Below, one piece after another: positions 46,343 through 50,417 of a stretch of 64,000 nt of DNA. Position numbers and translations under genes: made by a program. This DNA is from Skeletonema tropicum (taxonomy: Eukaryota; Bacillariophyta; Thalassiosirophyceae; Thalassiosirales; Thalassiosiraceae). The notes beneath the pieces are model-generated. The model did no database searches, had not been told where the DNA came from, and saw nothing but the letters and a program-made list of their open reading frames with translations. The stretch covers positions 4,340,001-4,404,000 of the forward strand of contig CM074130.1 in the NCBI GenBank assembly GCA_037178625.1, in the 5' to 3' direction. The first letter of the stretch is position 1. Each line of letters opens with the position of its first letter.

Positions 46343-46813
46343 AGGTTGCAGGTTCAGCATCTCTCCTATTCATGCAGTTCGTTGTGGCAGGTTTACTGTG
46401 CTTGTATCATTTTGAAATTCTTTGCTATCTTTTAAGTTGGACTTGTAAGCAGAGAAATTCTCTGATAAACTTAAGATGTTGCACTTTGTCCTGATCTAAT
46501 TTTATAGATGTGGAATGTCGCAGTTTACCTATTTCTAATTTTATGAGACTATCACTTCATAATTTTCATCATGTCATGTACTTCTTGTTTGCAACTCTTC
46601 GAATGTCTTATATAGGGTTTCTAAGAAAAGATTGTACCGATTTCTACTGTATACCTTTAGACCTTATGCTGTTGGTAGAAGTAGCAAGTAGCAACACCAG
46701 AGTTGGTGCTCATCAGGACATGAATGTTTAAGTTAAATGGGATCATTGATTACTGGGACACAATGCCACGTCACGCTTTTGCTTCGCGCCATTTGGCTTG
46801 ATTCCATTCCACC
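46343..46813 (+). repeat. Duplicated block A, copy 1
   Basis: About 470 bp nearly identical to 47156-47632, from aggttgca through ttgattccattccacc. Only a handful of differences are visible. Confidence 0.9.
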
Positions 46814-46861
46814 ACGGGAACCATTCCACCGGCGGTTCCAACAAGCCCAGGCAGCAGGCAG

Positions 46862-47158
46862 CATAGCAGGTTTGTGTGTTGTGGTATGGAATTGTGCTCG
46901 TTCATGAAGCAGGAACAGATGAAATAAGCAACTGCACGACTTCCGTAATAATCTCCATCGTCCTCGAAAGTAGGAATTGTGGCCCATGATGTTACCAAGG
47001 ACTCTTACTCTAGTCATCTTTTGACACAATTGTTTCATTTCATCGGCTTTCGTCCCCTTCAACCGTGTTGGAAAAACCAGCTCTCGATTGCCTCAAACAT
47101 GGATGATATATGCCCAGAAATTTTCAAACGTCACCTATCAATCCTTTCATCAACGAGG
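46862..47158 (+). pseudogene. Truncated duplicate of the msrA promoter and first exon
   Basis: Matches 47944-48232, the promoter and 5' coding part of msrA. The copy has ATG at 46989 and reads toward the plastid leader, but indels break it (tttttgac becomes ttttgac, attccaac becomes attttcaaac). It stops at gagg before the catalytic codon, where block A resumes. It cannot encode MsrA. Confidence 0.8.
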
Positions 47159-47632
47159 TTGCATATTCAGCATCTCTCCTATTCATGCAGTTCGTCGTGG
47201 CAGGTTCACTGTGCTTTGTATCATGTTGAAATTCTTTGCTATCTTTTAAGTTGGACTTGTAAGCAGAGAAATTCTCTGATAAACTTAAGATGTTGCATTT
47301 TGTCCTGATCTAATTTTATAGATGTGGAATGTCGCAGTTTACCTATTTCTAATTTTATGAGACTATCACTTCATAATTTTCATCATGTCATGTACTTCTT
47401 GTTTGCAACTCTTCGAATGTCTTATATAGGGTTTCTAAGAAAAGATTGTACCGATTTCTACTGTATACCTTTAGACCTTATGCTGTTGGTAGAAGTAGCA
47501 AGTAGCAACACCAGAGTTGGTGCTCATCAGGACCGGACATGAATGTTTAAGTTAAATGGGATCATTGATTACTGGGACACAATGCCACGTCACGCTTTTG
47601 CTTCGCGCCATTTGGCTTGATTCCATTCCACC
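47156..47632 (+). repeat. Duplicated block A, copy 2
   Basis: Second copy of 46343-46813. Blocks run A, B (truncated msrA 5' end), A', MITE, B' (real msrA), showing tandem duplication before or after MITE insertion. Confidence 0.9.
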
Positions 47633-47678
47633 GTGCGGTTCCAACAACTGAATCCAGCCAGCCCAGGCAGCATAAATA

Positions 47679-47938
47679 GTCGTCGTACACATAGATTGAC
47701 ACCCAGTGCGCTGACACAGCCTGTCAATCTATGTGTACTGTCAATTTAAAGGTATTACAGCTATGTAGGGCACTTACGTACGTAATCTAAGATACCACCA
47801 ATTTAGTTAGTCTTTCTTCTAGTCGTCTCTCAGGAGAAACGGGGAAACCAGCTATACGAGAAGGTAGTGTCCAGCTCTGCTGGGTCAATGTATGTGTACT
47901 GTCAATTTATAAGTGTGTCAATGCATGTGTACGACGAC
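47679..47938. mobile_element. 260 bp MITE with 24 bp terminal inverted repeats
   Basis: gtcgtcgtacacatagattg... at 47679-47702 and its complement at 47915-47938 differ at one position. Subterminal copies of tatgtgtactgtcaattta occur at both sides. It is absent from the sister duplicated block, where the flanking gcagcata...agcaggtttg sequences are nearly adjacent, which supports a discrete insertion. Confidence 0.8.
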
Positions 47939-48065
47939 TGTACAATAGCAGGTTTGTGTGTTGTGGTATGGAATTGTGTCGTTCATGAAGCAGGAACAGA
48001 TGAAATAAGCAACTGCACGACTTCCGTAATAATCTCCATCGTCCTCGAAAGTAGGAATTGCGGCC

Positions 48066-48738
48066 ATGCTACCAAGGACTCTTACTCTAGTCATCTTTTT
48101 GACACAATTGTTCATTTCATCGGCTTTCGTCCCCTTCAACCGTGTGGGAAAAACCAGCTCTCGATTTGCCTCAAACATGGATGATATATGCCCAGACATT
48201 CCAACGTCACCTACCAATCCTTCCAATGAGGTAGCAATTCTAGCAAGTGGATGATTTTGGCACCCCCAACGTGACTTTCGGAGCACGGTAAGTAGTAGAA
48301 CATGAAACACGTTCAAATTTTGAAGGAGAAGATGTGGCCAAACTAACTTTTTGTTTCTACTACCCATAGGCGGGGGTTGTTGACGTTATTGTCGGCTATA
48401 CTGGAGGGAAGAAGAAGAATCCAACCTACCAAAATATCTTGGATGCCACAGAAGCTTATCTAATTGAATTCGACCCGACTGTGATTACATACGAAGAAAT
48501 TCTCGACCATTGGTCGGATATGCACGCTCCTTTTTATCCTTCTAAATGTCAGTATCGTTCAGCAATATTTTATAGCACTGAAGAACAGCGTGATGCTGCA
48601 AAAGCAAAGGTTGAAGAGCTTGGGAAAGGAGGCCGGTTGAAAGTGTATGTCGATATCGAACCAGTTTCTGCATTTTACCGTGCAGAGGAATACCATCAAG
48701 ATTTCCTTGCAAAACAAATGAGTTCCTCAGCAATTTAG
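48066..48738 (+). CDS. msrA: Plastid peptide-methionine (S)-S-oxide reductase with probable selenocysteine
   Basis: Exons 48066-48287 and 48370-48738 with an 82 nt intron (GTAAGT...CCATAG), phase 0, 196 residues. MsrA reduces methionine-S-sulfoxide in proteins. The leader MLPRTLTLVIFLTQLFISSA|FVPF is a signal peptide plus ASAFAP motif, so plastid. The catalytic motif GCFW reads ASG-TGA-FWHPQ: an in-frame TGA at 48252-48254 (residue 63) stands at the active-site Cys. Exon 2 continues the family sequence (VVDVIVGYTGG, EILDHWSDMHAPF, KCQYRSAIFY, AEEYHQDF). No other defect is present, so selenocysteine is the best reading, as in the known Chlamydomonas Sec-MsrA. A Cys-to-stop mutation or error is the alternative. 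No C-terminal resolving Cys. Confidence 0.85.
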
Positions 48739-48811: not shown

Positions 48812-48890
48812 AAGATCAACCGGAATGACGGAATTTTCTCACCTCTCTTGCAGAGCGAGGACAATCCTGAGATACATTATGTAGGTCATC
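48812..48890 (+). promoter_or_regulatory. SECIS-like stem-loop in the msrA 3' UTR (candidate)
   Basis: About 75 bases after the stop. AATGAC (TGA at 48826-48828) and CCTGAG (TGA at 48868-48870) could form the non-Watson-Crick quartet. Between them ggaattttctc pairs with gaggacaatcc in 9 of 11 positions. The apical loop starts ACC, so it would be a CC-type rather than AA-type element. The lower stem agatcaacc/ggtcatct is weak and the 3' internal loop is large. Hand-folded only. Confidence 0.35.
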
Positions 48891-49142
48891 TCCGTGTTTT
48901 ATGTACTGCAACCATTTAATTTCATTAATTACTGTCAAATAAACCCAATCACATGAGAGAATTCGACAGCACTACATGTACTAGACTTTGTTGGATTCTT
49001 GAGTGTTCGTACGATTATTCAATCATTTGTTAGAGCAGCAGTTATTGTAAGTAATACCTCGTAGTGAAGGAAAGGAATTAAGTATTCTTTGTTATTCGCA
49101 TCATTCACGATTACTGGGTGCATAATAATTCACACCAGCCAA

Positions 49143-50417
49143 CTATGCGCTGGGCTCCAAAATAAAGCTGGGAGTTGACCTAGCGATTTCAAGCTCCTCC
49201 TCATTCATATCAGCATCAATCGAAGCAAAGAGCGGGGTACTCAAATAACGCTCTCCAGTATCAGGAAGCATGGCAACAATCACAGATCCCTCAGGAGCCT
49301 TCTTTGCTGTCTCAATTGCCGCCCACATGGTAGCTCCACCTGAAATACCCGTCAAAATACCTTCATTGCGAGCAAGTGCTTGAGATGTTTGAACCCCAGC
49401 CCCGTCGGGAATCTCCACCATGTCATCTTGTAGGCCCAATCCCTTCTCTAACACAAGAGGGATGAAATCAGGAGTCCATCCTTGGATAGGATGGGCAGCA
49501 AAGGCAGGATGACTACCGGCAGGACTTCCATCCTCATTTCGATCGGTCTTGATTCCAGATCCAATCAAGTTGGCGGCACCTGGTTCCGCAAGGATAATCT
49601 TAGTATCAGGACTATTCTCCTTAATGTACTTACTAGCTCCATGGAAAGTTCCTCCTGTACCATATCCAGTCACATAATAATCCAAACCCGACCCAATACT
49701 CTTCAAATCATTGCAAATCTCCGGCCCAGTCGTATCATAATGAAACTTCCAATTGGCATCCGTCTCAAATTGATGACAGAGGAACCACCCATGCTTCTCG
49801 GCAAGTTCCTTGGCCTTTTCGACCATACCGGTACCCTTGCCTGCCTTGGGTGTGACGATTACCTTGGCACCCAGCATGCGCATGAGCTTGCGACGTTCTA
49901 CGGAGAATGGTTCGGCCATTGTGATGACGCAGGGATACCCACGTTGGGCACACATCATGGCAACTGCGATACCAGTGTTACCCGAGGTAGCCTCGATGAC
50001 AGTCTGACCAGGTTTGAGGGTACCATCCTTCTCGGCAGCCTCAATGATCGCCAGTGCCAAACGATCCTTCACCGAAGATAGAGGATTGAAGTATTCACAT
50101 TTGGCATAGATGGTCCGACCCTCGGGACAAAGCTTGTCAGAGATCTTGACCATGGGTGTGTTACCGACTGCCTCGCTGATGTTGCTGAGGGGTGGTCCGT
50201 ATCCCTCACCGCGTGCTTTGGCACTCATCTTGGTGGGGCTGCTGCTACTGCTGCTAGTTGATGCGCCTACGCCAGAGACAATGTCGCGAAGAGAAGCGCG
50301 AAGAAGTTGTGGTGGTTGAGAGGAGGCGCTGGAGGAGGAAGTTGTTGTTGGCGCGAGGAAGGCCGATGCGGTGGCTGCTGATGCACCGAGGAGGAATAGT
50401 TGGGCTGCGAACTTCAT
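49143..50417 (-). CDS. cysK: Plastid cysteine synthase (O-acetylserine (thiol)lyase)
   Basis: Intact 424 residues. MKFAAQLFLLGASAATASA|FLAPTT is a textbook diatom plastid leader. The enzyme joins sulfide to O-acetylserine, PLP-dependent, the last step of cysteine synthesis. Motifs: EAVGNTPMVKI, NPLSSVKDR with PLP lysine K117, TSGNTG (144-149), GTGGTFHG (253-260), ISGGATMWAA and PDTGERYLSTPLF. The mature domain begins near residue 75. No frame problems. Neighbour msrA is convergent, with about 400 bases between. Confidence 0.95.
   Translation of the reverse strand: MKFAAQLFLLGASAATASAFLAPTTTSSSSASSQPPQLLRASLRDIVSGVGASTSSSSSSPTKMSAKARGEGYGPPLSNISEAVGNTPMVKISDKLCPEGRTIYAKCEYFNPLSSVKDRLALAIIEAAEKDGTLKPGQTVIEATSGNTGIAVAMMCAQRGYPCVITMAEPFSVERRKLMRMLGAKVIVTPKAGKGTGMVEKAKELAEKHGWFLCHQFETDANWKFHYDTTGPEICNDLKSIGSGLDYYVTGYGTGGTFHGASKYIKENSPDTKIILAEPGAANLIGSGIKTDRNEDGSPAGSHPAFAAHPIQGWTPDFIPLVLEKGLGLQDDMVEIPDGAGVQTSQALARNEGILTGISGGATMWAAIETAKKAPEGSVIVAMLPDTGERYLSTPLFASIDADMNEEELEIARSTPSFILEPSA

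Follow-up and report, generated by a model that had tools for sequence, protein, structure and literature searches.

A probable selenocysteine-containing MsrA with a plastid-type leader in the diatom Skeletonema tropicum

A gene for an MsrA in Skeletonema tropicum carries an in-frame TGA at its catalytic position, and we regard it as very likely that codon 63, a UGA, stands for selenocysteine (Sec) and that the gene encodes a nuclear diatom selenoprotein. The gene lies in a window of 64,000 nucleotides, the whole stretch of DNA analysed here, from a genome of 78.4 Mb in 125 contigs. An earlier note on this DNA had taken the TGA at the catalytic Cys as the sign of a selenoprotein, and this reading is supported by tRNA-Sec, SepSecS, SPS2 and six Sec genes in the same genome, by a GAATGAC element behind the gene and by the relatives of the protein.

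Diatom Sec-MsrA is already in print and the window gene is a further example. MsrA is among the 16 selenoproteins of Thalassiosira pseudonana given in Table 2 of Lobanov et al. 2007 (PMC2375036), and the T. pseudonana Sec-MsrA is repeated in PMC7238072; the list agrees with the earlier statement that diatoms encode selenoproteins. Chlamydomonas, cited in the earlier note as an established case, has its Sec-MsrA named as MsrA1 in both sources. Likened by description only, the T. pseudonana protein resembles ours in enzyme family, Sec and diatom host, and Chlamydomonas MsrA1 is likewise an algal Sec-MsrA but of the green lineage. GPx, TR, SPS2 and SelU selenoproteins are also listed for T. pseudonana in PMC2375036, and the same kinds were found here. 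An algal survey gives 20–44 selenoprotein genes for diatoms, and in it MSRA and SELENOU are the commonest families in selenoprotein gene clusters (PMC7539508), some green algae of the Mamiellophyceae are described as having a second, bacterium-like MsrA_b (PMC6627142), and in a T. pseudonana proteome an MsrA, which one being unspecified, was up 2.2-fold under high light (PMC5139114). Among the titles listed by searches of open-licence PMC, none dealt with a plastid location or a resolving Cys of a diatom Sec-MsrA.

The catalytic motif G-C-F-W is written GGA TGA TTT TGG at 48249–48260, as read directly from the sequence, and both its coordinates and its reading in the earlier note are exact. 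This TGA is the sole in-frame stop ahead of the TAG that ends the 196 codons, the gene is free of frameshifts with consensus splice sites, and the proposed in-phase intron of 82 nt is borne out (Table 1). Because the catalytic TGA sits in an otherwise intact gene, the Sec reading is strengthened; a random nonsense mutation would land on the catalytic codon about once in 200.

Table 1. Features of the MsrA locus in the window.
Feature	Position	Strand	Basis or remark
MsrA gene, two exons, 196 residues	48066–48738	+	reading frames of the sequence
MsrA exon 1 with a leader of signal/plastid type (SSAFVP), the CPxIP segment and the putative G-Sec-F-W active site	48066–48287	+	74 codons; leader judged by its motif
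Cys42 codon (TGC) in ICPDIP, candidate resolving residue	48189–48191	+	position hand-computed; alignment A3
In-frame TGA at the catalytic position, codon 63, putative Sec63	48252–48254	+	sequence, relatives
MsrA intron, 82 nt, GT...AG, phase 0	48288–48369	+	sequence, frames of both exons
MsrA exon 2: Tyr94, Glu102, Gln135-Tyr136, His183; TAG stop 48736–48738	48370–48738	+	profile match, alignment
SECIS candidate A: GAATGAC 48823–48829 ... TGA 48868–48870, 9/11 colinear pairs, CC 13 nt after ATGA	48823–48870	+	motif and stem test
SECIS candidate B: ATGA 48953–48956, 11–13 bp stem, TGA 49000–49002, without GAATGAC	48953–49002	+	stem scan
Broken tandem duplicate of the leader exon; its frame is disrupted and an MsrA domain does not follow	46989–47172	+	left copy of the duplication
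MITE-like insertion, 262 nt, 25-nt inverted ends 47678–47702 / 47915–47939	47678–47939		right copy only

Around the gene, the leader exon and the region upstream of it have recently been duplicated in tandem (46402–48250), with blocks that are 89–100% identical, the longest two 99–100%; the scan for it began at 46400 and its left limit may lie further left. The spacing is 814–1082 in the long blocks, the likeness stops near the Sec codon and the frame of the left copy is broken. An insertion (47673–47944) is found in the right copy only, about 120–130 bp upstream of the MsrA start. On the other side a cysteine-synthase-like gene (family assigned by eye) runs convergent to MsrA on the minus strand (49143–50417) and has the plastid-type leader ATASAFLAP.

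The MsrA domain downstream of the TGA is intact, as had been stated, since the PMSR profile (PF01625) scores 98.7 bits on exon 2 with a cut-off of 23.7. The NCBIfam MsrA models also match exon 2 (P0002) with low E-values, yet under their curated cut-offs, and the cut-off of the MsrA equivalog TIGR00401 (108.1 bits) is missed by the relatives P0003 (100.0), P0032 (97.3) and P0111 (106.5) as well as by exon 2 alone (88.3). The predicted fold of P0003, which has Trp at the site, is that of an MsrA (mean pLDDT of the model 87.5), and a Foldseek search with this model placed E. coli MsrA at rank 1 and the MsrA of Clostridium oremlandii (CoMsrA) fifth, with CoMsrA structures at ranks 5, 7, 9 and 10. 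CoMsrA was also the best PDB sequence match of the family profile (alignment A2). It has Sec at the same residue (PDB 4lwj, 4w8c, 4u66), and its pocket residues are named in PMC4333827. Aligned with CoMsrA, the window protein presents the MsrA pocket pattern G-C/U-F-W, Tyr, Glu, Gln-Tyr, His, and by hand counting on the alignment the equivalents Tyr94, Glu102, Gln135, Tyr136 and His183 are kept; the only pocket residue not kept is Tyr140 of CoMsrA, at whose position Phe186 is found. A loss of the catalytic Glu through an E to Q exchange after GUFW was considered and rejected: the catalytic Glu is E102, which aligns with Glu55 of CoMsrA (residues hand-counted).

Exon 1 opens with a signal-peptide-like start followed by S-S-A-F-V-P, and by eye an AF.P motif was also seen in the relatives P0003, P0036 and P0007. 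SSAFVP resembles the ASAFAP-like motif of diatom plastid import, in which a signal peptide is followed by a transit peptide and F stands at the cleavage point. The plastid leader of the earlier note is a candidate one, marked by its signal-like start and SSAFVP, and by this motif rule a plastid location of the MsrA is likely.

Among 5890 relatives at E<=0.001 the best 120 were inspected by script for the catalytic motif. It is shown by 17 of these 120, as G-W-F-W in 15 and as G-C-F-W in two (P0111 and P0118, with 45 and 49% identity), and is not shown in 100, many of which start just behind the codon; P0074, P0076 and P0080 turned out to be false regex matches and were discarded. Several transcriptome ORFs are called complete yet start just after the codon (e.g. 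P0013, P0014, P0015 and P0019), the NCBI entry P0017 from Conticribra starts exactly at F-W-H-P-Q, the NCBI gene model P0007 from Cyclotella omits about 10 residues at the motif and the model P0119 is motif-less too. The loss of the protein after 62 residues that had been foreseen for a gene finder has its counterpart in deposited diatom models, with P0007, P0119, P0008 and P0017 being cut or skipping the motif. P0004 shows 85% identity across 69% of the query, with all of the match behind the TGA, and the named close relatives among those listed are diatoms such as Cyclotella, Thalassiosira, Conticribra and Chaetoceros. The G-W-F-W of the 15 relatives would be best explained as TGA translated to Trp with code 4. 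The earlier note had suggested to look in related diatoms for TGA or TGC/TGT at this codon; in the protein entries of the relatives the site appears as a Trp or as a broken or skipped motif, and two relatives have Cys.

From prokaryotes 80 loci were kept of 579 found in a search of genome contigs; 73 of the 80 have Cys at the site, seven were unrecognised by the motif script and none has TGA. Viral contigs scanned for DNA of relatives gave 71 pattern matches and no relative. In a phylogenetic tree that took in 28 of the 80 prokaryotic loci, the window protein groups with 11 of the 15 GWFW rows in a single clade (12 rows, 100/95), separate from three Cys-MsrAs of the same genome (L001, L002 and L004), and the Cys row P0111 adjoins this clade with a long branch. 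The other MsrA genes of the genome with a PMSR domain are L001–L005, L007 and L008, and Cys was read at the catalytic site in five of these seven (L001, L002, L003, L004 and L007). These paralogues share the PMSR domain with the window protein, and differ from it by the Cys of the five that were read and, for the three in the tree, by their place outside the Sec clade. In L002 and L003 a Cys-type MsrA domain lies behind an FKBP-like N-terminal part (by eye); the two are near-identical and 128 kb apart on contig C13, and further PMSR pairs are present on C2 and C20.

The search of the genome for selenoprotein machinery that had been proposed earlier found tRNA-Sec, SepSecS and a Sec-codon SPS2, most of what Sec decoding requires. 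Five genes, identical over the tRNA, encode tRNA-Sec with the anticodon TCA (L009–L013; contigs C9 and C10). Three of the five stand in tandem about 245 bp apart; in many eukaryotes the tRNA-Sec gene is single. SPS2 is itself a Sec gene with a TGA in LKG*ACKVPQ, and in six further genes a TGA occupies a classic Sec position: two GPx (VASK*GLTK and VACE*GLTH), a thioredoxin reductase (TR) whose C-terminal end is GCUG-stop, and three SelU (L036, L037 and L040) with TGA within the G-U-x-L-C motif. The earlier note had named a genome without such machinery and without a SECIS, in which a second, intact Cys-MsrA is the expressed copy, as speaking against Sec; Cys-MsrA genes do exist here, and tRNA-Sec, SepSecS and SPS2 are present.

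Bacterial SECIS elements sit elsewhere than those of eukaryotes, which lie in the 3' UTR. In six of the Sec genes (two GPx, TR and three SelU) we found stems flanked by GAATGAC and TGA, from which the motif GAATGAC was derived. It is located 45 to about 129 nt past the stop in all eight Sec genes including MsrA, where it follows the stop by 87 nt; for TR the count started 2 nt ahead of the true stop. Because the other six genes defined the motif, SPS2 and MsrA are its fair test, with the motif in both. A stem that closes on TGA is found in seven of the eight genes including MsrA, and SPS2 fails this test. The stems of the three SelU genes start 45–56 nt past the stop, and in the 3' UTR of TR a second GAATGAC, 122 nt beyond the first, has a weak stem that closes on TGA (L031 2895–2938). 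The control came from 21 protein loci of this genome that are not Sec genes, of which 17 were used (L017, L018, L033 and L039 were left out, and several near-identical pairs are included). With the stop taken as the earliest one in frame behind the start of the match, none of the 17 has GAATGAC within 250 nt of it. The same holds for all seven MsrA paralogues L001–L005, L007 and L008 within 250 nt of their stops. GAATGAC occurs six times in the window (128 kb on both strands) and 27 times in 206 kb of other loci with overlaps counted twice, a background of about one in 10 kb, at which some 0.013 would be expected in 130 nt. Among the six in the window only the one in the MsrA 3' UTR starts a stem closing on TGA.

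In stability this candidate A does not clearly surpass shuffled sequence (z 0.33 over 87 nt, -1.28 over 57 nt), its free minimum-energy fold differs from the proposed stem, and 6 of 500 shuffles pair as well as its 9/11. The SECIS core of SPS2 is similarly weak (z -0.16), but a strong lower stem is predicted there and none such in candidate A. That the MsrA is a selenoprotein whose working SECIS is candidate B and not A is a real though clearly lesser possibility: the perfect 11-bp stem of B is reached by none of 500 shuffles and its core has a z of -3.06 compared with -0.91 for A, but B has ATGAG in place of the GAATGAC of all seven other Sec genes, lies further from the stop (+217, about 130 nt beyond A) than the elements of the other genes, and is one of a class of stems with 12 others on the two strands of the window. 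Candidate A is probably the better choice, and either of them would serve the main conclusion of a selenoprotein.

Infernal, suggested earlier as a check for the SECIS, gave no match of the Rfam model SECIS_1 in the window, the MsrA 3' UTR or the whole genome; because the UTRs of TR and GPxB, which are clear Sec genes, are equally unmatched, this null result is uninformative here. Lobanov et al. relied on SECISearch (PMC2375036), whose AA/CC pattern is not passed by the MsrA 3' UTR in our own version of the scan, with nothing found there under strict or loose limits. The same scan of four control UTRs gave one match with strict limits (TR) and three with loose ones (GPxA and GPxB among them), with none for SPS and that of GPxB elsewhere in the UTR. 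This pattern, with 17 and 23 strict matches on the two window strands, was dropped, and so was a TACAT loop common to B, GPxA and GPxB, which neither the SelU elements nor the first element of TR contain. A MAFFT alignment of seven SECIS candidates was poor in its 3' half.

The disturbed locus could also be read as a decaying MsrA pseudogene with the TGA as a nonsense mutation, as a broken duplicate of the leader exon and the MITE-like insertion lie upstream and Cys-type MsrA genes are present elsewhere in the genome. We consider this very improbable, since the single stop is a TGA and falls precisely on the catalytic codon, in an unbroken frame with consensus splice sites, P0004 is so similar behind the TGA, the relatives are broken at the same codon and the GAATGAC element follows the gene. 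An error of sequencing or assembly hiding a TGC or TGT for Cys would fit with only one copy being seen, but the same place is interrupted in relatives, transcriptome entries and NCBI gene models among them, which makes such an error the least credible of all readings. The models P0007 and P0119 without the motif and the GWFW of the databases might suggest that the codon is spliced out or that UGA is decoded as Cys or Trp. This is again highly improbable: splicing would delete the catalytic residue, the genome encodes tRNA-Sec(UCA) and a Sec-codon SPS2, and by script reading TGA terminates the frames of L003, L007 and L026 in the same genome.

With Sec at codon 63 as the preferred reading, its recycling partner deserves attention. 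Cys42 (C-P-x-I-P), 21 residues before Sec, is invariant in the 13 chosen rows of alignment A3, and is lacking in P0118 and the gene model P0119. In the P0003 model the block 41–50, which matches the Cys42 stretch, is well ordered (mean pLDDT 96). As a guess, Cys42 may resolve Sec63. CoMsrA differs here, as it is described as Cys-free, as needing a helical domain at its C terminus and as being reduced by glutaredoxin (PMC4333827), whereas the window protein contains Cys42 and stops shortly behind the catalytic domain. One might go further and propose a plastid MsrA clade that keeps Sec in the sampled GWFW rows, is resolved by the Cys 21 residues upstream through a selenenylsulfide and is decoded here via a GAATGAC core often without AA/CC, but taken together this proposal is rather unlikely. 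If true, it would mean a layout of Sec-MsrA recycling unlike that of the cysteine-free CoMsrA.

For Sec insertion, splicing and catalysis we infer the following course. The MsrA mRNA would be spliced at the 82-nt intron, a SECIS in the 3' UTR would recruit the Sec machinery and tRNA-Sec(UCA) would decode the UGA, and the leader would probably direct the enzyme into the plastid. Sec63 would attack methionine-S-sulfoxide there, with Tyr94, Glu102 and Tyr136 as the oxygen-side pocket, and methionine would be released; either Cys42 or an external thiol or glutaredoxin would then recycle Sec63.

Automatic annotation drops this protein, either by cutting it at 62 residues or by splicing away its active site as in the models of related diatoms. 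The GAATGAC...TGA element, missed by the Rfam SECIS model genome-wide, might serve as a handle for listing the other selenoproteins of the genome, and the recovered MsrA would add a plastid-type repair enzyme to the selenium demand of a diatom.
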